Part shown: positions 2,831 to 51,545 of the stretch, piece after piece
How positions within the stretch are numbered: the first letter of the stretch is position 1
Layout of the letters: each line of letters begins with the position of its first letter
NCBI RefSeq assembly: GCF_022763305.1
Contig: NZ_JALEGT010000055.1
Coordinates: 1-64,000 of the forward strand
Direction of reading: 5' to 3'
DNA from: Marivita sp.
Lineage (GTDB): Bacteria; Pseudomonadota; Alphaproteobacteria; Rhodobacterales; Rhodobacteraceae
Length of the DNA: 64,000 nt
The notes under the pieces: generated by a model
The model's input: the letters and a program-made list of their open reading frames with translations, nothing else
What the model was told of the DNA's origin: nothing
The model's database searches: none
Made by a program: the position numbers and the translations under genes

Positions 2831-3991
2831 TCAGTAAACTGTGTCAGCGTTATCAGTGACTTGTGCCTCGGTGACCTTGCCCCAGAGCACCTTGTAGACC
2901 CACGCCGTGTACATCAGGATCAGCGGCATGAAGATCGCGGTGACCACCAGCATGATGAATAACGTCTGGTGCGAAGACGAGGAATCCCACACGGTGAGCG
3001 AGCTCTTGGGATCAAGGGTCGAGGGCAGGATGAACGGGAACATGGTCAACCCGACGGACGAGATGATCCCGAGGATGCCCATCTTCGACCAGAGGAGCGT
3101 CGACACCTCACGTCCCGCCCGCAGGCCCATCACCGCCAGCGCGATCCCGGCAAAGCCCATGACCGGCGCAATCACGATCCACGGACGCTCGGCATAGGCC
3201 GACAGCCACGATCCACCGTGTGTCACCTCGGAATAGAGCGGATTGGATGGGCCACTGGCCGCGACCTCGCCCAACGAAAAGCCGTCAACGCCCACGGCCA
3301 GCCACAGACCCGCCAGCGCATAGCCCGCAGCGGCAACGATCCCTGCCTTGATCCCAATAGCGCGGGCGCGTTCGGCAACCACACCTTCGGCCTTGAGCGA
3401 CAGCCAAGCCGCCCCGTGCATCAGCAGCATCGCCAGCGACACCACCCCGGCGAGCAGCGCGAAGGGGCGCAGGAGGCCGATGAACTTGACGGCGAAGTTG
3501 CCCGGATACATCGGCATCAGGTCTTCGGTCAGGTAGAACGGCACACCCAGCAGGACATTGCCCACCGCCACACCGAAGAGCAGCGCGGGCACCGCACCGC
3601 CGGCGAAGAGCGCCCAGTCCCAGCGCGCCCGCCATGTCGCACCCTCGCGCTTGGAGCGGTACTTGAACGCTACCGGGCGCACGATGAAGGCGGCCAGAAC
3701 CACAAACATCGCAAGGTAGAAGCCCGAAAAGCTGACGGCGTACAGCGGCGGCCACGCGGCAAAGATCGCGCCCCCGCCAAGGATGAACCACACTTGGTTG
3801 CCTTCCCAGACCGGGCCGACCGTGTTGATGGCCACGCGCCGTTCCACGTCGGTCTTGGCGACGAAGGGCAGAAGCGCGCCCACGCCCATGTCGAAGCCAT
3901 CGGTCAGGGCAAATCCGATCAGGAGCACGCCCAGAAGCGCCCACCAGATCACGCGCAGGATGTCGTAGTCGATCAGTTCATAAAGGATCAT
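2831..3991 (-). CDS. cydB: Cytochrome bd ubiquinol oxidase subunit II
   Basis: A 386-residue polytopic membrane protein, subunit II of the bd-type quinol oxidase that reduces oxygen to water with high affinity and without proton pumping. It starts MILYELIDYDILRVIWWALL and contains the family signatures GFALTDGFDMGVGALLP and GPVWEGNQVWFILGGGAIFAAWP. The true start is the ATG at 3991, five bases after the cydA stop; the open frame continues upstream through cydA in another frame without meaning. Length is normal for CydB. It is translated with cydA and cydX as one operon. Confidence 0.97.
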   Translation of the reverse strand: MILYELIDYDILRVIWWALLGVLLIGFALTDGFDMGVGALLPFVAKTDVERRVAINTVGPVWEGNQVWFILGGGAIFAAWPPLYAVSFSGFYLAMFVVLAAFIVRPVAFKYRSKREGATWRARWDWALFAGGAVPALLFGVAVGNVLLGVPFYLTEDLMPMYPGNFAVKFIGLLRPFALLAGVVSLAMLLMHGAAWLSLKAEGVVAERARAIGIKAGIVAAAGYALAGLWLAVGVDGFSLGEVAASGPSNPLYSEVTHGGSWLSAYAERPWIVIAPVMGFAGIALAVMGLRAGREVSTLLWSKMGILGIISSVGLTMFPFILPSTLDPKSSLTVWDSSSSHQTLFIMLVVTAIFMPLILMYTAWVYKVLWGKVTEAQVTDNADTVY

Positions 3992-3996
3992 CTGTC

Positions 3997-5610
3997 TTAC
4001 TCCGCAGGGGTTGCGGCAAGGGTCGGAGCCGGGGTCTCGGAGCGCAGCCGCGCTTCGTGCCGTTCCTGCCAGGCATTGGTTTCTTCGACGTCCTGGAACG
4101 GGCCCTTGCGGATGTATTTCACCATCAGGCTCACCTCGATCACGAAGAGGACCGAATAGAAGATCAGGAACCCGGCCAATGTGATCAGCAGATCCGCGAT
4201 GCTCAGATGCGAGGCGCTGAGCGCTGTCGGCAGCACGCCATCCACGGTCCAGGGCTGGCGGCCGAACTCGGCCACGAACCAGCCCAATTCGGCTGCGATC
4301 CACGGCGTCGGGATGATGGCGACAGCGGCATAAAGCGACCAGCGCGGGAACTGCATGTTCCGGAACGAGGCGCGGTAGAAGAAATACGCCATCACCGCGA
4401 TGAAGCTGAAGCCAAGCGCCACCATGATCCGGAACGCCCAGAACAGCGGGGCCACACCGGGAACGGTGTCATCAGCTGCCATCTTGATCTGTTCTTCCGT
4501 CGCATCGCGCGGATCGTCGACATAGCGCTTGAGCAGCAAGGCATAGCCCAGATTGTCGGAATGCGCCTCGAAGGTCGCGCGCACCTCGGGTGGGGTTGCG
4601 TCACGCTGTTCGCGGATCGTCATCAGCGCGTCATAGGCGATCAGCCCGTCGCGGATCTTGACCTCGGATTCCGCCACCAGATCGTTGATGCCGGGGATTT
4701 CCTTGGTCAGGCTGCGCGTGCCGATCAGGCCCATCGCCCAGGGGATTTCCACGGCGTAATGCGTCTCACGCGCTTCCTGATCGGGAAAACCAATGGCGGT
4801 GAAGGGCGCGGGCGCGTCGTGGGTTTCCCACATCGCCTCGATCGCGGCGAGCTTCATTTTCTGCGTATGGCTGGCGGAATAGCCGGACTCGTCACCCAGA
4901 ACGACAACGGACAGCGCGGCGGCAAGCCCAAAGGCGGACGCCACCGCAATGGATCGGCGGGCCAGATCTTTGTTCCTGTTCTGAAGGAGATAAAGCGCCG
5001 ACACGCCCAGCACGAAGACGGACGCCGTCACATAGCCCGCAGATACGGTATGAACAAATTTCGCCTGCGCCACTTCGTTGAAGAGCACGTCAAAGAACGA
5101 CGTCATCTCCATCCGCATGGTGTCGGGGTTGAATTCCGCGCCGACCGGGTTCTGCATCCAGCCATTGGCGATCAGAATCCACAAAGCCGAAAAGTTCGAC
5201 CCGATGGCGACCAGCCAGGCAACCACCATGTGCTGCACCTTGCTCAGCTTGTCCCAGCCGAAGAAGAACAGGCCGACGAACGTGGCTTCAAGGAAGAACG
5301 CCATCAGCCCTTCGATGGCCAGAGGCGCGCCGAAGATGTCGCCGACATAGTGGCTGTAATAGCTCCAGTTCATGCCGAACTGGAATTCCATCGTGATGCC
5401 GGTGGCGACGCCCAGCACAAAGTTGATGCCGAACAGCGTGCCCCAGAATTTCGTCATCTGCCGCCAGATGGGGCGGTTCGTCATGACGTAGACGGTCTCC
5501 ATGATCGCCACGAGGATCGACAGACCCAGCGTCAGCGGCACGAAGAGAAAGTGATACATGGCCGTCAGCGCAAACTGCATGCGCGACAGCTCGACCAGTC
5601 CGATCTCCAT
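3997..5610 (-). CDS. cydA: Cytochrome bd ubiquinol oxidase subunit I
   Basis: A 537-residue membrane subunit carrying the three hemes (b558, b595, d) and the quinol site. The N-terminal helix has the heme-ligand region MYHFLFVPLTLGLS; the GWFVAEFGRQPWTVDG signature lies near the C-terminal third. The region between helices 6 and 7 is extended, as in the long Q-loop class. AAGGAG precedes the ATG. The roughly 120 bp upstream hold an FnrL-like box and two copies of an 18-bp repeat. Cytochrome bd is known to resist sulfide and nitric oxide, which fits the neighbouring genes. Confidence 0.97.
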   Translation of the reverse strand: MEIGLVELSRMQFALTAMYHFLFVPLTLGLSILVAIMETVYVMTNRPIWRQMTKFWGTLFGINFVLGVATGITMEFQFGMNWSYYSHYVGDIFGAPLAIEGLMAFFLEATFVGLFFFGWDKLSKVQHMVVAWLVAIGSNFSALWILIANGWMQNPVGAEFNPDTMRMEMTSFFDVLFNEVAQAKFVHTVSAGYVTASVFVLGVSALYLLQNRNKDLARRSIAVASAFGLAAALSVVVLGDESGYSASHTQKMKLAAIEAMWETHDAPAPFTAIGFPDQEARETHYAVEIPWAMGLIGTRSLTKEIPGINDLVAESEVKIRDGLIAYDALMTIREQRDATPPEVRATFEAHSDNLGYALLLKRYVDDPRDATEEQIKMAADDTVPGVAPLFWAFRIMVALGFSFIAVMAYFFYRASFRNMQFPRWSLYAAVAIIPTPWIAAELGWFVAEFGRQPWTVDGVLPTALSASHLSIADLLITLAGFLIFYSVLFVIEVSLMVKYIRKGPFQDVEETNAWQERHEARLRSETPAPTLAATPAE

Positions 5611-7393: not shown

Positions 7394-9021
7394 AACGAGG
7401 ACTCCAGCCGTATGAGTTTTCGCATCCTTTCGATGAGGCGCGGATCATGGGTTGTGGTGATCAATGTGCCACCGCTCGCGACATAGGCCAGCAGAGCCTC
7501 TACGATATCATTGGCCGTGTCGGCATCGAGATCGGCTGTAGGTTCATCGGCGAGGAGAACCGCAGGTGCCCGGTTCAAAGCGCGTGCAAGCATCACACGG
7601 CGGGCCTCGCCACCAGAAAGGCCTGCGCCGCTTTCTCCCAATTCTGTAAAATCCTTGGAAGGCAAACCGGAGATAACTGGGGTCACCTGCGTAAGCCTGA
7701 GAATATCTGCGTCCAACGGGGCGCCAAAGCCGATATTGTGGCGTAAGCTTCGCCCAAGAAAGCGTGGCGTTTGCGGCATCCAGCCCAAGGCAGCGCGCCA
7801 TGAGTCGGCGTTTGTATCCGTCAGTTGCGTTCCGTTCAGCTGGACTGCACCGCATGTGGGCTGCTCCAAACCCGCAAGCACCCGCAACAAGGTTGTCTTT
7901 CCAATGCCGCTGGGGCCAATGATGGCCAAGCTGTCGCCCGGCCAGATGTCCAGATCCGGAAAGCGCAGCGTGCGATCTCTATGATCAATCTCCACATCCC
8001 GCATTGCCAGGCTCTGAAACATGACTGCCTCGGCATGCGCACCGTGTCCCAGCATCTCCCGGCGGCGTTCTGTGCGCCACGATATCACGTCCTCTTGTAC
8101 GGCATCGGCTGCGGATTTGTCATGCCAAGCGGCCGCCAGATCACGCAATGGCTGGAAGAAATCCGGGGCCAGCAAGAGCAGGTAGATCCCCGCGAATGGA
8201 TCCAAAGGCGTGCCCCATGTGCCCCAGCTGATTTCGCCCAGAAGCGCAAAGCCCACCCACACAGCGATCATCGCCACACCCAGCGCCGAGAAAAGTTCGA
8301 GCACGGTGGACGAAAGAAAGGCGACCCGCAGAACGGCCATCGTTTTTTCCCGAAGAGTGTCCGAGGCCTTGGCGAACCCGTCGACCACTTGCGGTCCGGC
8401 ACCGACCAGAGTGAGGTCCCCAAGCGCCGCCAATCGGTCTGCTAGAAGATCATTCAGCGATCCAATCTCGATCATCTGACGCGCACTGGCCGCTTTTGCG
8501 GCCCATCCAACCAAGGCCATGAACACCGGGATCAATGGCCCTGTGGCGAGCAGAACCACCGCAGCAGCCCAGCTGTGCCATGCGGTGATCGCAAGGATGA
8601 TCAGCGGGACGACCATGACGCGCAGGCGCGCCGGTGTGTATCGCACAAGAAACGGACGCAGCGCTTCAAGTTTTTCCGTAGCAAGCGCCGCAATTGACCC
8701 GGCGCCGCCAAAGTGTGACGCTTGGTCCGTGGCGGTTTCCGCGTCCAAGATCTCCTGCCGAATGTTTTGGATGTGCCTCTCGGCCGCTTCGCTCAGTGCC
8801 ACCTGAGCCTGATACGTCAGGAGCGCCCGCATAACGCCAAGGCCGAAGAACGAGAGCGAGGTACCCCAAACACCCACGGCATCGCCAGACAAAAGCGCCG
8901 CCAAGACGTGAGCAATCACCCATGCCTGTGCCAGCCAGATCATGTTAACCACGACAGACAGCGCCGCCCCCAATCGGCCAGTCGGCGACGAAACGGTCTT
9001 ATGAGGTGAAGAGTGACTCAT
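7390..9021 (-). CDS. cydD: Cysteine/glutathione exporter subunit CydD
   Basis: A 543-residue ABC half-transporter, partner of CydC. The membrane domain occupies about residues 15-310, followed by an ATPase with Walker A GPSGIGKTT, signature LSGGEARRVMLARAL and Walker B VLLADEPTADLD. It is the first gene of the cydDC unit and is divergent from the Rrf2 gene with a 122-bp shared control region holding an FnrL-like box. Length and motif order match CydD. Its role is periplasmic thiol homeostasis for cytochrome assembly. Confidence 0.93.
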   Translation of the reverse strand: MSHSSPHKTVSSPTGRLGAALSVVVNMIWLAQAWVIAHVLAALLSGDAVGVWGTSLSFFGLGVMRALLTYQAQVALSEAAERHIQNIRQEILDAETATDQASHFGGAGSIAALATEKLEALRPFLVRYTPARLRVMVVPLIILAITAWHSWAAAVVLLATGPLIPVFMALVGWAAKAASARQMIEIGSLNDLLADRLAALGDLTLVGAGPQVVDGFAKASDTLREKTMAVLRVAFLSSTVLELFSALGVAMIAVWVGFALLGEISWGTWGTPLDPFAGIYLLLLAPDFFQPLRDLAAAWHDKSAADAVQEDVISWRTERRREMLGHGAHAEAVMFQSLAMRDVEIDHRDRTLRFPDLDIWPGDSLAIIGPSGIGKTTLLRVLAGLEQPTCGAVQLNGTQLTDTNADSWRAALGWMPQTPRFLGRSLRHNIGFGAPLDADILRLTQVTPVISGLPSKDFTELGESGAGLSGGEARRVMLARALNRAPAVLLADEPTADLDADTANDIVEALLAYVASGGTLITTTHDPRLIERMRKLIRLESSL

Positions 9022-9077
9022 GGTCCGCTTTCTTTTCGGAGCTTTTGGCCTCTTACGCCATGATCTTTGGATTTGAC

Positions 9078-9091
9078 GTGATCTGGATCAA
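9078..9091. promoter_or_regulatory. FnrL/FNR-like box in the cydD-rrf2 divergent promoter
   Basis: GTGATCTGGATCAA matches TTGAT-N4-ATCAA at nine of ten positions. It lies 57 bp from the cydD start and 53 bp from the Rrf2 start, so it could serve either promoter. Confidence 0.5.
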
Positions 9092-9099
9092 AGAAACTG

Positions 9100-9119
9100 G
9101 TATCCATGATGTGGAATAT
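9100..9119. promoter_or_regulatory. Candidate Rrf2 autoregulatory operator
   Basis: GTATCCATGATGTGGAATAT matches the cydA-distal element at 5711-5730 in 15 of 20 positions, keeping the ATC-N3-GATG core. It is 25 bp upstream of the Rrf2 start, where bound regulator would repress its own gene. Confidence 0.35.
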
Positions 9120-9143
9120 CGGTCGGAACGTGAAGGAAACGCG

Positions 9144-9620
9144 ATGCGTCTGACGACCCGAACCAATCTTGCCGCGCGCACCCTTATGTACTGTGCGGTC
9201 AATGACGAACAGCTTGTGCGCACATCGGACATTGCAGAGCGCTGCAATGCCTCAATCAATCATGTCGCGCGGGTTGTTCAGCAACTCCAGGCCGAGGGTT
9301 ATCTCGAGACTCTTCGTGGGCGCACCGGTGGCATCCGTCTTGCCAGACCCGCCAACCGCATTTCGATTGGCTCGGTGTTCCGCATATTCGAAACCGACAT
9401 CCCCTTTGCCGAATGCTTTGACGAAGTCCGCAACACGTGCCCATTGGCTGCAACCTGCCGCCTGCGCGGCTATGTCGTGCGGGCGCTGGAGGCGTTCTAT
9501 CACGAGCTGGACATGGTCACGCTCGAAGACCTTGTACGCGGCAATTGCGGGTTGATGGATTTACTTGCGATGCGCCCCGATATCTCTGCGTCCTGTTCGG
9601 GCCGCACCGCTTCCGCCTGA
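9144..9620 (+). CDS. Rrf2-family Fe-S regulator (NsrR-like)
   Basis: A 158-residue transcription factor. Residues 1-85 form the winged helix typical of Rrf2 proteins (start MRLTTRTNLAARTLMYCA). Three cysteines, Cys91, Cys99 and Cys105, can ligate an Fe-S cluster; in E. coli NsrR they are Cys91, Cys96 and Cys102, so the first gap is three residues longer here. The ATG at 9144 is chosen because GAAGGAAAC precedes it and the domain starts there. Placed divergently from cydDC, it probably represses cyd genes until nitric oxide, iron or oxygen status changes the cluster. NsrR is the best guess, but the ligand signal cannot be read from sequence. Confidence 0.8.
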   Translation: MRLTTRTNLAARTLMYCAVNDEQLVRTSDIAERCNASINHVARVVQQLQAEGYLETLRGRTGGIRLARPANRISIGSVFRIFETDIPFAECFDEVRNTCPLAATCRLRGYVVRALEAFYHELDMVTLEDLVRGNCGLMDLLAMRPDISASCSGRTASA

Positions 9621-9668
9621 CTGGTGTGCTCTTCCCTATCAGGCCGGGAAGAGCACAGCCCATGACAC

Positions 9669-10331
9669 TCAGAGCGACTTTGTCGAGAAATACCAATCCG
9701 TGGTTTCATACCCCTCGGACATGCGTGCCTCAGCGGCATTGGTCGTTTGCGGCGTCGGAACGATCACGTCCTGACCCGGTGTCCAGTTCTCGGGAGTCGC
9801 CACCTTGTGCGTGTCTGCAGTCTGCAGGGCTTGGATCAGGCGGTAGAATTCGTCAATCGAACGACCATTGGTCATCGGGTAATAGACCATCGCCCGCAGG
9901 ATTCCGTCGGGGTCGATGATGAAGGTCGCGCGCACCGCCTGTGTGTCGGACGCCCCAGGCTGGATCATGCCGTAGTCCTGCGCCACTTTCATGTCGAGGT
10001 CGGCGATGATCGGGAAGCCGATATCCACGCCAAAGCTGTCCTTGATCGACCGCACCCATGCGATATGCGCGTAGTGACTGTCGATGGACAGACCAAGCAA
10101 TTCGGTGTTCAGTTCGGCAAAGTCATCGGCGCGGCGAGCAAAGGCCATGAATTCGGTGGTGCAGACCGGAGTAAAGTCGGCCGGGTGCGAAAACAGGATG
10201 AGCCATTTGCCGCGATAATCTGCAAGCGATTTTCGACCATGGGTGGTCAGCGCATCAAAGGCCGGCGCGGGCTCGTTGAGGCGGGGCAGGGTAACCTGAG
10301 ACGGGGATGTGAATTCGGTGACAGCGTTCAT
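9669..10331 (-). CDS. 1-Cys peroxiredoxin (Prx6 type)
   Basis: A 220-residue thiol peroxidase that reduces hydrogen peroxide and organic peroxides. The peroxidatic Cys57 is in the motif PADFTPVCTTE. The C-terminal part has the Prx6-type stretch KVATPENWTPGQDVIVP, and the length matches Prx6 rather than AhpC. The ATG at 10331 is chosen because the fold begins there and GGAGAGACC precedes it. It is divergent from the OxyR-like gene, 110 bp apart, suggesting peroxide-dependent control by that regulator. Confidence 0.9.
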   Translation of the reverse strand: MNAVTEFTSPSQVTLPRLNEPAPAFDALTTHGRKSLADYRGKWLILFSHPADFTPVCTTEFMAFARRADDFAELNTELLGLSIDSHYAHIAWVRSIKDSFGVDIGFPIIADLDMKVAQDYGMIQPGASDTQAVRATFIIDPDGILRAMVYYPMTNGRSIDEFYRLIQALQTADTHKVATPENWTPGQDVIVPTPQTTNAAEARMSEGYETTDWYFSTKSL

Positions 10332-46825: not shown

Positions 46826-47545
46826 ATGAAATCGATTCTGGCTTCGGTCTTGGCGCTCGGTGTGGGCATCGCCCCGCTGCATGCTCAGCAGGGATGCGCC
46901 CGCGATGCGATGGTCGTCTTCGACGGATCGGGGTCGATGGCCGAGATGGGATTCAATCTTCTGGACGAGCCGCGCATTCTCGACGCGCGCCGTGCCATGC
47001 GGACCGTCATGCCGCAAGTGGCGCCCGTGCGCCGCATGGGGTTGATCACCTACGGACCCGGCGCCAAGGCCCAGTGCGACAGTGTGCAACTGCGCTTTGC
47101 TCCGGTGCCCGATGCCGCGGATCGCATGATTTCCGAGGTCGAGCGTCTTGAGCCCGAGGGGGAAACACCCCAGACCGATGCCATCGCTCAGGCGGCTGCC
47201 GTGCTGGATTATACCAACAAGCCCGGCGTGATCGTGCTTGTGACCGACGGAAAGGACACGTGCGGTGGCGCGCCCTGTGCGTTGGCGGCGGATCTTGTGC
47301 GGGGTGCGGACATGACGGTGCACGTGATCGGCTTCCGGGTCCGGGGCGAACATTTCGCCTGGCCGGACCAGCCGGCCGACACGGCGGTGGAGCCCGTCGC
47401 ACGCTGCCTCGCGGATCAGACCGGCGGGACCTACGTGCATGCCGAAACGCTTGACGATCTGATCGGGGCGCTGCGCCAGACGCTGGGCTGCCCGGTCTAC
47501 AGTACGGTTACTTTCGGGCGTCCTGCCACGCGCGGGGCGCTTTGA
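46826..47545 (+). CDS. Secreted von Willebrand factor A domain protein
   Basis: A 239-residue protein with a signal peptide ([21 protein letters not shown]) and one VWA domain. The MIDAS motif is DGSGSM with supporting residues in PQTDAI and [12 protein letters not shown]. Cysteines are numerous (C24, C61, a DTCGGAPC pair, ARCLA and a final LGC), consistent with periplasmic disulfides. Metal-dependent ligand binding is expected; the ligand is unknown. Its last 38 bp overlap the convergent pyrE. Confidence 0.85.
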
Positions 47546-48236: not shown

Positions 48237-48271
48237 AAAGGGCGGGTGGCATGGTCAGCCTCCCGCCCTTT
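48237..48271 (-). terminator. Terminator of the puc operon
   Basis: On the minus strand AAAGGGCGGG pairs with CCCGCCCTTT (10 bp) around 15 bases and runs into TTCC. It lies 24 bp beyond the repeat-protein stop and before pyrE. Confidence 0.75.
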
Positions 48272-48294: not shown

Positions 48295-49332
48295 TCAGCG
48301 CCGCTTGAGTGTCGGCAGCCCCAGCATCTTGGAAAAGGACCAGCCGCTTTCGCTGTCCTGCGGGCGACGGATCACCAGCGGCAGGAACACGTCCGCCATC
48401 CGGGCATGCCGCGGAAAGATCGACTTGGTCGAGGGTTTGCGACGGCTGATGAGCGGGATCGGCCAGTTGGCCATGCGGGCATGGCGCGGGAAGGCAAAGC
48501 CGTCATAAGGTTCGCGGTCGCTCAGCAATGGGATCGGGAAATCCGCCTGATGCGGTGCCCCCGGAATGATCGCATTGGTATGCTCTTCCCCGTTGATCAG
48601 CAGCGGGAAGGGCCAGTTTGCCATCCGCATGTGACGCGGGAAGGCGAACTTGTCCCACGGTTTGCGGCGGCTGATGAGCGGAAGCGGGAAATTCGCCATG
48701 CGTGCGTGGCGGGGGAAGGCGAACTTGTCCCAGGGCTTGCGGTGGCTGATCAGCGGAAGCGGCCAATTGGCCATGCGTGCGTGACGCGGGAAGGCGAACT
48801 TGTCCGCCGGCTTGCGGCGGCTGAGCAGTGGGATCGGCCAGTTTGCCATGCGGCCGTGGCGGGAGATCGCCATCTCGTCATAGGGCTTGCGGCGGCTGAT
48901 CAGGGGGATCGGCCAGTCCGCCATGTAGTGATTGCGCTCGGACGGGTCTTTCTGACGAAGCAGGATATGCGGATGTTCGGGCAGGATGCTCAGCCCGCGT
49001 CCGCGCGCATCCTTGACGAAATGGTCCTGGTTGAGGTCGCCCATGGCCACCGCACCTTTTTCAGCGGCGACCCTGCGGGTGATCTTGGCCACGCCCAGCG
49101 GCGAGTACTTGCCGCGCACCATCAGCACCGCCCCACCCGAAGACATCCGGGCCTCATAGGCCTTTGCCGTTTCCGGCACGACATTCGCGGCCTGCAACGT
49201 TTTGGCCAGACCCTTCTTGTCGGAATAGATCCGGATGATGGCGGGCGACACGTTATACGTATACATGAGTTTGCGTTTCGCAGATTGGGCCTGATCTGCG
49301 CTGTCGAAGTACCGAGTGATAATCGTCGTCAT
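48295..49332 (-). CDS. LH2-operon protein with eight 25-residue Trp/Pro/Arg/His repeats
   Basis: A 345-residue protein of unrecognised family. Residues 1-135 form an alpha/beta domain (MTTIITRYFDSADQAQSAKR ... GGAVLMVRGKYSPLGVAKIT) reminiscent of small stress-protein (YflT-like) folds. Residues 136-335 are eight tandem 25-mers; most carry MANWPIPLISRRKP followed by D/W-K-F-A-F-P-R-H-A-R. Repeats five and eight diverge. A short tail (MLGLPTLKRR) ends the protein. There is no signal peptide or transmembrane helix. Its ATG overlaps the pucC stop by 4 nt (ATGA), so it is translated with pucC, and the operon terminator follows. I infer a role in LH2 assembly, array organisation or pigment handling. 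Rhodobacter pucD/pucE products occupy this place, but I cannot show homology. Confidence 0.8.
   Translation of the reverse strand: MTTIITRYFDSADQAQSAKRKLMYTYNVSPAIIRIYSDKKGLAKTLQAANVVPETAKAYEARMSSGGAVLMVRGKYSPLGVAKITRRVAAEKGAVAMGDLNQDHFVKDARGRGLSILPEHPHILLRQKDPSERNHYMADWPIPLISRRKPYDEMAISRHGRMANWPIPLLSRRKPADKFAFPRHARMANWPLPLISHRKPWDKFAFPRHARMANFPLPLISRRKPWDKFAFPRHMRMANWPFPLLINGEEHTNAIIPGAPHQADFPIPLLSDREPYDGFAFPRHARMANWPIPLISRRKPSTKSIFPRHARMADVFLPLVIRRPQDSESGWSFSKMLGLPTLKRR
48328..48927 (-). repeat. Eight tandem 75-bp coding repeats
   Basis: In-frame direct repeats of exactly 75 bp encode residues 136-335 of the LH2-operon repeat protein. Neighbouring units, such as the third and fourth, are nearly identical at DNA level, pointing to recent duplication or gene conversion; unit number may vary between strains. 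Confidence 0.9.
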
Positions 49333-50771
49333 GGTGCCTCCACCGGGTTGGATTGCGAGGATGCTGCAGCACGTGGGGCCCGTGACAGGTCTCCCCGGCC
49401 CGCGAGCGGGAAAATCAGGAGTACGGCGAGCACAAGGAACGCCATCTCCATGGAGAATACAACGTTGTAGGGCGTTTCGACGGCAAGGCCATTGTCGCCG
49501 GACGGAAGGGCGACAATCAGGTCGCGTGCCCATCCGGCAAGCGCCATGCCGATCCCGGCCGCCGTCGCCTGAACGCTGCCCCAGGCACCAAGTGCCAGCC
49601 CGACCTTTTCCTTCGGCGTGGCGCGCATCGTCGCGGTCAGGGTCGAATGGCCGAACAGGCCCGCGCCTAGGCCGATCATCAGCGTGCCGGCCAGAAAGGC
49701 CGTCGTGCCGCCGCCATAGGCGGAAAAGATGATGGCGGCAAAGCCGGGAATGCCGATCAGCGCGCCGGTCAGCGATGTCGAGGACGGCGCGCCGCCATTG
49801 CCCAGCGTGCGCGACGCAATGCCAAAGCCCAGCAGAGTGCCACCCGCGAGCAGCGCCGTGAGTTTCGTCGTGCTGGCAACCGACAGGCCCAGAGCTTCGC
49901 CGCCATAGGGTTCGAGAAGCACATCCGCCATGCCGAAACCGAACGTGCCAAGGGCGATGACCAGCAGCAGCCGCAGCATGCCTGCATTCTGCATCAATTG
50001 CGCCCATGCGTCACGAAAGGCGACGTTCGGCGCCACTTCCATGGCTTTGGCCCGAACGCGGTCTCGTGCCTCCTGTTTCCACATGGCCAGGAAATTCAGC
50101 GCGACGGTCACGACGGCAGACCCCTGGATGACCTGCACCAGGCGACCCGGCGAATAGTTTTCCAGAAGGATTCCATAGATGATCGCGCTCAGCACCATGC
50201 CGAACAGAAGCATGACATACATCAGGCCGACCACTTTGGGCTGATCGGCCTCCTCGACGAGATCCGTCGCTAGGGCGAGGCCAACCGTCTGCACGATGTG
50301 CACGCCCGCGCCGACCAGGAGGAAGGACAGTCCGGCGGAACTGTAACCGATCCAGCGCGGGGCATCGTAGGCCTCGCCATAGCCGGACAGGACCAGCAGG
50401 GCGAAGGGCATGATGGCAAAGCCACCGAACTGGTAAAGCGTGCCTTTCCAGATATAGGGCAGGCGGCGCAGACCCAGCGCGGATTTGTGCATGTCGGATT
50501 TGAACCCGATAAGGGCCCGGAACGGCGCAAAGAGAATGGGCAGCGCCAGCATCGTGCCGACAAGGCTGGCCGGGACCGACAATTCGACGATCATCACGCG
50601 GTTCAGGGTTCCGACCAGCAGAACCAGAGCCATGCCAACCGTCACCTGGAACAGCGACAGCCGCAGCAGGCGCGACAGCGGCACGCCGTCCGAGGCGACA
50701 TCCGCAAAGGGAAGATAGCGCGGGCCGATGGTCGCCAGTCTGTGCAGAACGATGCGACGGTAGTCGAACAT
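49329..50771 (-). CDS. pucC: LH2 assembly transporter-like protein PucC
   Basis: A 480-residue membrane protein with twelve predicted helices, of the bacteriochlorophyll delivery (BCD) branch of the major facilitator superfamily. It begins MFDYRRIVLHRLATIGPRYLPFADVASDGVPLSRLLRLSLFQVTVGM in the region of residues 1-48, typical of PucC/LhaA proteins. Motifs FRALIGFKSDMHKSALGLRRLPYIWKGTL (around residues 84-112) and GFGMADVLLEPYGGE are family landmarks. PucC is required for LH2 formation. It follows pucA by 109 bp, across a hairpin, and is coupled to the repeat-protein gene. Confidence 0.94.
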   Translation of the reverse strand: MFDYRRIVLHRLATIGPRYLPFADVASDGVPLSRLLRLSLFQVTVGMALVLLVGTLNRVMIVELSVPASLVGTMLALPILFAPFRALIGFKSDMHKSALGLRRLPYIWKGTLYQFGGFAIMPFALLVLSGYGEAYDAPRWIGYSSAGLSFLLVGAGVHIVQTVGLALATDLVEEADQPKVVGLMYVMLLFGMVLSAIIYGILLENYSPGRLVQVIQGSAVVTVALNFLAMWKQEARDRVRAKAMEVAPNVAFRDAWAQLMQNAGMLRLLLVIALGTFGFGMADVLLEPYGGEALGLSVASTTKLTALLAGGTLLGFGIASRTLGNGGAPSSTSLTGALIGIPGFAAIIFSAYGGGTTAFLAGTLMIGLGAGLFGHSTLTATMRATPKEKVGLALGAWGSVQATAAGIGMALAGWARDLIVALPSGDNGLAVETPYNVVFSMEMAFLVLAVLLIFPLAGRGDLSRAPRAAASSQSNPVEAP

Positions 50772-50880: not shown

Positions 50881-51198
50881 TTACAACTCGGGTTGCAACT
50901 GGGATGGCTGGATCAAGGCCTGTGTCGACGTCCCATCCGGGAGGATGATCGTGACCTGCAGGCTGCCATCTTGCTGCGGTACCGCATAGCTGGCCTTGGC
51001 CGTATCCGACTTCGGAGCAAGGAGCTGCGCCGAAGCTTCGGTGCTGCTCAGCTCTTCGCCGACGAGGTAGTTGTTGTACCAGTCGACCTTGCTGAGCACG
51101 GCAACGTGCACGGCAAAGGAACCGACGGCAACCGCGCCGAGGAAGATGGGAACGCCCACCGCGGGGGGGACGACGAGCCACATTTTTGCGTTGTTCAT
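50881..51198 (-). CDS. pucA: Light-harvesting complex II alpha subunit with long C-terminal extension
   Basis: A 105-residue LH2 alpha polypeptide. It starts MNNAKMWLVVPPAVGVPIFL; the helix spans ~12-35; His31 binds B850 bacteriochlorophyll. Numbering equals that of Rhodoblastus acidophilus LH2 alpha, so Tyr44 is kept while Trp45 is Leu45. These two residues hydrogen-bond the B850 acetyl groups and set the absorption band. A hydrophilic extension of ~55 residues (from EELSSTEAS to QPEL) is unusual, as most LH2 alphas have 50-65 residues. It starts 12 nt after the pucB stop behind CGGAGACAC. Confidence 0.93.
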   Translation of the reverse strand: MNNAKMWLVVPPAVGVPIFLGAVAVGSFAVHVAVLSKVDWYNNYLVGEELSSTEASAQLLAPKSDTAKASYAVPQQDGSLQVTIILPDGTSTQALIQPSQLQPEL

Positions 51199-51210: not shown

Positions 51211-51369
51211 TTATCCGAGCCAGGGTGTGGACACGGCCACAAGGAAGTGCGCCAGCAATGCGATCGCACCGAACACGCGTGTGCCATCAATCAGGTAGCT
51301 GTGGACCTCCTCGGCCTCTTTCAAGGTCAAACCGGTCGGCCAGACCTTGTCTTCGTCGTCTGTTGACAT
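51211..51369 (-). CDS. pucB: Light-harvesting complex II beta subunit
   Basis: A 52-residue LH2 beta polypeptide, too short for standard calls. It reads [20 protein letters not shown] at the start, then His23 (B800 neighbourhood), [18 protein letters not shown] with Arg31 and His41 (the B850 ligand), and ends STPWLG. It is the first gene of the puc operon, with AAGGAGTTCACA before the ATG. Length is normal. Confidence 0.96.
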
Positions 51370-51501: not shown

Positions 51502-51519
51502 TGTAATAAAAAACTGACA
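51502..51519. promoter_or_regulatory. PpsR/CrtJ site 1 upstream of pucB
   Basis: TGT-AATAAAAAACTG-ACA fits TGT-N12-ACA, the site of the aerobic photosynthesis repressor PpsR/CrtJ. It is 133 bp upstream of the pucB ATG. Confidence 0.75.
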
Positions 51520-51527
51520 GTAGCAAT

Positions 51528-51545
51528 TGTAATCTTAAGTTTACA
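51528..51545. promoter_or_regulatory. PpsR/CrtJ site 2 upstream of pucB
   Basis: TGT-AATCTTAAGTTT-ACA again fits TGT-N12-ACA. Eight bases separate it from site 1, the spacing used for cooperative binding at bch and puc promoters. Confidence 0.8.

Follow-up and report, generated by a model that had tools for sequence, protein, structure and literature searches.

The gene downstream of pucC and its product

The textbook account of the LH2 antenna usually names alpha and beta polypeptides and pigments, with PucC taking part in assembly. In the stretch of Marivita sp. DNA analysed here (64,000 nucleotides, referred to as the window) the pucB, pucA and pucC genes are followed by a fourth gene, and the locus raises the question of what its product, a folded domain with a long repetitive tail, does in an LH2 operon. 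The original prediction placed this gene at 48295–49332, coupled it translationally to pucC, and considered work in LH2 assembly, array organization or pigment binding. The coordinates are right, and the strand, which had been left unstated, is minus: the reading frame runs from an ATG at 49332 to a stop at 48295 and encodes 345 residues. The coupling is likewise real, since the pucC stop codon and the ATG of the gene share the tetranucleotide ATGA, corresponding to a gap of −4. In window coordinates, the features of the locus are:

51502..51545, no strand assigned: two tandem TGT-N12-ACA sites (51502–51519 and 51528–51545), PpsR/CrtJ target pattern
51211..51369, minus: pucB (PF00556, E 3.3e-10)
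50881..51198, minus: pucA with C-terminal extension, 105 aa, LHC domain 3–41 (PF00556)
49329..50771, minus: pucC, overlapping the repeat-tail gene by 4 nt (PF03209, E 3.9e-143)
48295..49332, minus: gene for the 345-residue repeat-tailed protein, fourth in the pucBAC operon (translation, operon comparison)
48997..49332, minus: N-terminal alpha/beta domain (N-domain), residues 1–112 (AlphaFold2)
48925..48996, minus: linker, residues 113–136, with HP dipeptide H120–P121 (N-domain conservation)
48850..48924, minus: repeat R1, MADWPIPLISRRKP..., residues 137–161 (this and the other numbered repeats except R5 by repeat alignment)
48775..48849, minus: repeat R2, residues 162–186
48700..48774, minus: repeat R3, residues 187–211
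48625..48699, minus: repeat R4, residues 212–236
48550..48624, minus: central unit R5, MANWPFPLLINGEEHTNAIIPGAPH, residues 237–261 (most conserved unit by position)
48475..48549, minus: repeat R6, residues 262–286
48400..48474, minus: repeat R7, residues 287–311
48325..48399, minus: repeat R8, divergent, residues 312–336
48298..48324, minus: C-terminal cap LGLPTLKRR, residues 337–345 (motif-like by eye)
48237..48271, minus: GC-rich hairpin then UUUU, between the gene and a phosphoribosyltransferase gene (−29.9 kcal/mol for 66 nt, z −3.07)

The tandem TGT-N12-ACA sites lie 133–176 bases upstream of pucB and conform to the PpsR/CrtJ pattern described in front of puc and other operons (PMC10890935); the window holds 12 such sites with 6.7 expected, a number reached in 3 of 100 shuffles. 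The hairpin 3' of the gene is a probable terminator, absent from the listing of a simple terminator scan. Two flanking genes match the phosphoribosyltransferase and amidohydrolase families and are read as pyrE and pyrC. Near the puc and pyr genes, positions 46826–47545 (plus strand) encode a von Willebrand factor A domain protein of 239 aa with an N-terminus that looks leader-like by eye.

AlphaFold2 (20 sequences) returned block means of 76–93 over residues 1–110, and pLDDT values below 50 for residues 111–127 and 134–345, which narrows the folded domain from the 135 residues originally assigned to it to a confident fold of about 1–110. The predicted model orders this domain as beta-alpha-beta-alpha-alpha-beta-alpha-beta. 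In the linker, H120 and P121 are present in at least 90% of 31 N-domains, and a stricter HP pattern matches 45 of 66 members. A similar prediction was obtained for a shorter relative (the short form of genome G035, see below), with two short low-confidence helices in the tail; the tail is predicted to be disordered in both forms. Foldseek searches of the PDB with both models gave no match at E 0.001. In a PDB profile search A1 hit de novo TIM barrels (E 5e-5 over 26 residues), which was taken as chance because no stretch passed alone, and a PHROGs match (E 0.008 over 25 residues) was disregarded.

The tail consists of eight 25-residue units spanning residues 137–336, of which R5 and R8 are divergent, and Tandem Repeats Finder reports a period of 75 nt with 4.3 copies and 80% matches in the gene. 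The units are preserved in 19 full-length relatives that are 54–89% identical to the window protein, with a variable end and a single one-residue insertion among all their units (in L010); because the units are kept at these levels of identity, the repeats are not chance. R5 reaches 78% mean same-position identity among 15 representatives, and the C-terminal cap scores as a ninth motif in L008 only. The tail carries a charge of +22. As originally predicted, the window protein has no transmembrane helix, as judged by a maximum 19-residue Kyte–Doolittle mean of 0.66. It has no Pfam match at E 1, the PucC, LHC and other known photosynthesis families included, and in NCBIfam only a 10-residue motif model was hit (E 0.45). 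Searches of open-licence PubMed Central papers turned up no description of the gene.

Distribution of the gene

We searched a family sample of 394 Rhodobacteraceae genomes (393 genera) with a profile of 31 N-domains at a cut-off of E 0.001. The profile matches 49 genomes, all of them among the 167 with a Photo_RC (reaction-centre) match, and none of the 227 family genomes without one. A member is the next gene 3' of pucC, on the same strand, in 48 of these 49 genomes, with a gap of −4 in 25 of these 48 genomes and pucB found beside the gene in 46; pucC is seen only as a contig-end piece of unsure type in G022 and is incomplete in G126 and G296. The hit in the 49th genome, G058 (E 2e-5), is a YflT-like protein that lacks any motif instance and whose gene has no pucC in its vicinity. 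A single-sequence search gave 50 of 394 genomes, of which G157 and G361 (E 0.002–0.003, internal stops) were unconfirmed by the profile. The proposed link to LH2 is borne out by this distribution, and homologues widespread in non-phototrophs away from puc, the outcome named in advance as refuting it, were not seen in the samples searched.

Of the remaining 119 Photo_RC genomes, 118 were searched for pucC; G323, with a match below cut-off, was left out. An LH2-type second pucC (58–65% identity) is present in eight, a single pucC match (48–56% identity) in 108, and none at E 1e-80 in two. The eight genomes have no member near pucC and none genome-wide by profile, and the gene is present in 48 of the 56 family genomes with an LH2-type pucC, taken as 58% identity or more. 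One of the eight, G051, encodes a PucA identical over 50 residues to that of 7pbw, which is named as Rhodobacter sphaeroides (PMC8775250); as judged by this identity, G051 is R. sphaeroides or a very near relative, and is without the gene.

Outside the family, five genomes besides that of the window matched at E 0.01 in a class sample of 230. Three of them, from three other alphaproteobacterial families (G493, G496 and G545; E 4e-14 to 1.4e-5), have the relative beside pucBA-like genes, the products being 53–85% (PucB-like) and 45–51% (PucA-like) identical to those of the window. The relative is divergent from the puc-like genes in G493, on the opposite strand in G496, and between two pucBA pairs in G545, where pucC comes next (L134:4504-7560). 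The two weakest matches, G442 and G537 (E 0.004–0.007), have no puc match within the stretch examined. A phylum sample of 279 genomes gave four matches at E 0.001, all from Rhodobacteraceae and including that of the window; both samples were counted whole, without sorting by phototrophy, and thus test absence elsewhere weakly. Plasmids and viral contigs searched gave no match.

Two further observations concern the LH2 operons that carry the gene. First, PucA is 98–123 residues long in 44 of 46 genomes with the gene (exceptions G207, 66, and G360, 51; PucA was not found in two more) and 52–73 residues long in the eight genomes with an LH2-type pucC and no repeat-tail gene (Fisher P 4e-8, genomes counted regardless of relatedness). 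By eye, the extra C-terminal part of PucA often contains LPDG or MPDG. Since the C-terminal regions of LH2 polypeptides are at the periplasmic side (PMC8775250), the PucA extension and a cytoplasmic tail would be on opposite faces of the membrane; the two would be markers of a single LH2 subtype, with no need for contact between them. Second, the operon of G126 (L108) is damaged: a search of the 3.6 kb preceding pucC yielded neither pucB nor pucA, the middle of pucC is missing, and the repeat-tail gene is split over two frames. The stretch contains no N. Gene and operon appear to have degraded together, as would be expected if the gene serves LH2; sequencing error is possible. G296 was considered as another decayed operon and rejected, as ten consecutive N mark the join between pucC and the gene (L109:4389-4398) and an assembly gap is more likely.

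The expectation that homologues would be confined to puc did not hold. Solitary long copies away from puc were found in 3 of 48 genomes (G001, G185 and G378), which keep a short form at puc, and on one Tateyamaria contig:

L137:1142-2179, solitary long copy
L138:8264-9361, solitary long copy
L139 near 8637-9701, solitary long copy
L038:5001-6050, solitary long copy

The copy in G185 is near FabA and ketoacyl-synthase genes. In G396, a second short-form copy is found beside a photolyase-related gene (PF04244; L142:4760-5401 and 3216-4748), the other copy being 3' of pucC (L141).

Short and long forms share a motif

The eight-repeat long form is a minority in the family, most members being short proteins of about 200 residues with mostly 1–3 motifs. 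At the puc locus of the 48 genomes we counted by hand 15 long forms (three cut by a contig end), 31 short forms and two damaged or interrupted genes (G126 and G296); G235 carries both forms in a row, pucBAC-long-short. The 73 distinct profile matches provided 66 rows for motif, spacing and tree work after seven were left out: the look-alikes L105, L130 and L131, two broken rows of L019 and one of L025, and the contig-cut L098. In an N-domain tree of the 66 rows, which has few columns and an unsettled bootstrap, a branch supported at 100/98 sets the long forms apart from the rest, which are short forms; on this tree, the long form appears to be a single derived branch of the family. The protein of G371, a genome from the genus of the window, is identical to the one on record for Marivita hallyeonensis (L002 and L036).

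The common core of the motif is [FW]-P-x-P-L-[IL]-S-x-[RK]-K-P. A 13-column motif has 322 instances in the 66 tails versus 2 in one shuffle per tail, and as it was trained on the same tails these circular counts show internal consistency only. Two short tails, L086 and L099, and the three YflT-like look-alikes (best score 1.33 versus a threshold of 3.72) have no instance. The spacing between motifs in 26 long forms is 25 residues (154 cases), 15 (50), 22 (1) or 26 (1), so that 204 of 206 spacings are 25 or 15. In a set of 39 short forms (240 residues or fewer, including L111, a contig-cut long form), 39 of 48 spacings are 25 or 26. The tails of long forms carry a charge of +28 on average and those of short forms +12.

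Units of the 15-type (FPFGHIVPGHK) replace some or most of the 25-type units, with R1 and the central unit retained in the 15-type proteins looked at, and with V or I in place of the motif Ser. The variable repeat number that had been anticipated is seen between forms, with 0–3 motifs in short forms and 9–14 in five complete 15-type proteins, and not within the 25-type form, where all 20 complete proteins have eight units. Well-supported branches of the tree force at least two changes of repeat type, and the type has switched among close Marivita relatives with PucA and PucB nearly unchanged (L034 versus L046 and L047). One Marivita gene (L040:4161-5165) has 25-residue repeats in its first half and 15-residue repeats in its second, a natural chimera of the types. 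Concerted evolution of the repeats was considered and rejected, middle units being only slightly more alike within a protein (0.703) than at the same position (0.674) or different positions (0.645) between proteins. The PucB N-terminus, KVWPTGLTL, is motif-like, but ranks 16th of 126 by motif score, and mimicry of PucB was rejected as well.

Relation to known proteins

The closest known parallel is the gamma polypeptide of Rhodopseudomonas palustris (RPA1495; PDB 7zcu chain S), an extended chain with six near-identical repeats on the outer ring of LH2 near the cytoplasmic side, in which each Ser holds one BChl and which is reported only in Rhodopseudomonas (PMC9618040). Both proteins are linked to LH2 and contain many short near-identical repeats; in both, a Pro-Leu-Ile/Leu core is soon followed by a basic residue, and the repeat part is without regular secondary structure, as seen in gamma and as predicted here (pLDDT about 30). 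They differ in that gamma has 97 residues, 16-residue repeats, Ser ligands to BChl and no folded domain, whereas the window protein has a folded N-domain, a pitch of 25 or 15 residues and a strongly basic character. No Ser is conserved at the place aligned with that of gamma, and the motif's own Ser occurs in 53% of unique instances. A phmmer search of the PDB, gamma included, found no match for the whole protein (E 1) or the tail (E 10). Of five aligned gamma windows, one exceeds the motif threshold, a result equalled in 280 of 20,000 column permutations; the reciprocal test fails, since 5 of 66 tails exceed the 95% point of shuffles and about 3 are expected to. By analogy, the tail would work like gamma, which is not to call the protein a gamma. 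CsoS2 and EPYC1 are multivalent disordered scaffolds with repeated linear motifs in a disordered chain; their motif, partner and system differ from those of the repeat tail, and the likeness is an analogy only.

Rhodobacter capsulatus PucD and PucE are encoded in the same operon and named after pucC (pucBACDE; PMC9231093, PMC4634722), and they could be members of the family. No R. capsulatus genome was found: compared with the LH1-alpha of 7yml, nothing exceeds 83% identity in 150 of the 167 Photo_RC genomes, and the genus of G111 is represented by a single genome. In G035, which we take to be Dinoroseobacter shibae, the fourth puc gene is a short-form member (228 residues, 3 motifs). A figure legend gives the D. 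shibae puc operon as Dshi_2897–Dshi_2900 (PMC10890935), and we infer that its fourth ORF is the repeat-tail family gene; the available part of that paper neither names nor studies this ORF.

The N-domain of some members bears a faint resemblance to YflT (PF11181, heat-induced stress protein), with matches of E 0.0014–0.093 in five relatives or look-alikes, all below the Pfam cut-off: the best, L134 (E 0.0014), scores 19.5 bits versus a gathering cut-off of 26.2. One of 11 A3 members matches at E 0.0029, and the window protein has no match to PF11181 at E 1. These sub-threshold matches suggest that the N-domain may descend from the YflT stress domain. Two YflT-like proteins with N-domain resemblance and no motif tail (L136:4506-5147 in G442 and L140:8799-9329 in G058) are possibly kin of its ancestor.

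Proposed function and alternatives

A role in LH2 is strongly supported by linkage, for which we count: (i) the operon position and the co-occurrence with LH2-type pucC, (ii) the relatives beside pucBA-like genes in three other families, and (iii) the joint decay of operon and gene in G126. As to how the role is exercised, we tentatively favor, at somewhat less than even confidence, a dedicated LH2 accessory protein with a tail that would dock in register at the cytoplasmic face of LH2 and work like the gamma ribbon. The protein would remain cytoplasmic (no signal peptide by eye, no membrane helix by hydropathy), with the N-domain anchoring or recruiting it, and the aromatic-Pro-Leu-basic units would follow the cytoplasmic rim of LH2 in sequence, at the level of the lipid headgroups, much like the extended gamma ribbon on R. 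palustris LH2. The tail would become ordered only on binding. Short forms, with mostly 1–3 motifs, would clip a few alpha/beta pairs, and the long form, with two repeat arms around the conserved central unit, might wrap one ring or bridge two.

A tail that is predicted to be disordered and yet keeps a near-invariant motif spacing argues for an in-register docking chain rather than a loose spacer, and the basic tails, the gamma precedent and the tandem PpsR-pattern sites upstream of pucB are also counted in favor of this explanation. Several results count against it: sequence kinship with gamma is not borne out by the comparisons; eight genomes with LH2-type pucC, one of which is R. sphaeroides or close to it, lack the gene; solitary long copies exist away from puc; and two short tails are without a motif instance. 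The switch of repeat type between Marivita relatives with nearly the same PucA and PucB suggests loose partner specificity. Matching of the eight units plus cap to a nonameric ring was entertained but does not hold as a rule: the five complete 15-type proteins have 9–14 motifs, a mismatch with a nine-fold ring that weighs against the docking model. A more specific version, which we regard as speculative and rather doubtful, is that the protein is a second, independently evolved LH2 ribbon, a folded anchor with an in-register chain, in which the two arms of the long form hold two rings and make it an operon-encoded antenna-array linker.

The main rival, which we consider unlikely without treating it lightly, is an assembly factor that works with PucC in LH2 biogenesis, holds nascent alpha/beta or PucC, and is absent from the mature antenna. 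A member adjoins pucC in all 48 genomes with a member, 25 of them with the 4-nt overlap, and LH2 assembly drops greatly when pucC is interrupted (PMC4949548). A strict pitch of 25 or 15 residues with up to 14 motifs, however, exceeds the apparent need of a chaperone, and the solitary long copies are found away from pucC.

Improbable, in our judgment, is a membrane organizer, in which the tail, polybasic and rich in Trp, Phe and Pro, attaches to anionic lipid and sets the spacing or curvature of the photosynthetic membrane around LH2 arrays with no specific LH2 contact. The strong positive charge and the interfacial residues would fit such a protein, as would a repeat type that changed with hardly any change in PucA and PucB, but the near-exact pitch and the position-conserved central unit need more than lipid binding.

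We hold it very unlikely that the protein is an extra-pigment antenna subunit, in which the repeated His, or the Ser of PLIS, binds bacteriochlorophyll like the Ser of R. palustris gamma. Apart from the gamma precedent, the idea draws on the His found within seven residues before 144 of 164 motifs of the 25-type and 62 of 76 of the 15-type. In short forms (38 proteins, L111 being treated as long in this count) this His precedes just 16 of 82 motifs and is missing at the other 66, which disfavors the pigment binding by repeated His in the original prediction as a general function, and the motif Ser is V or I in 15-type units. Finally, a YflT-like general-stress-type protein that merely hitch-hikes in the operon without an LH2 role would fit the sub-threshold PF11181 matches, and can practically be dismissed given the absence of profile matches from all family genomes without Photo_RC and of motif instances from the three look-alikes tested.

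Implications for LH2 in Rhodobacteraceae

An un-named extra gene, which many marine phototrophs have in the operon for LH2, their outer antenna, accompanies LH2-type pucC in 48 of the 56 family genomes sampled. The usual model, R. sphaeroides, appears to be without the gene, which would explain why it was missed. The nearly invariant pitch of 25 or 15 residues provides a testable ruler, and, if the tail lies on LH2, the protein would explain part of the stabilization or packing of antenna rings in these phototrophs.
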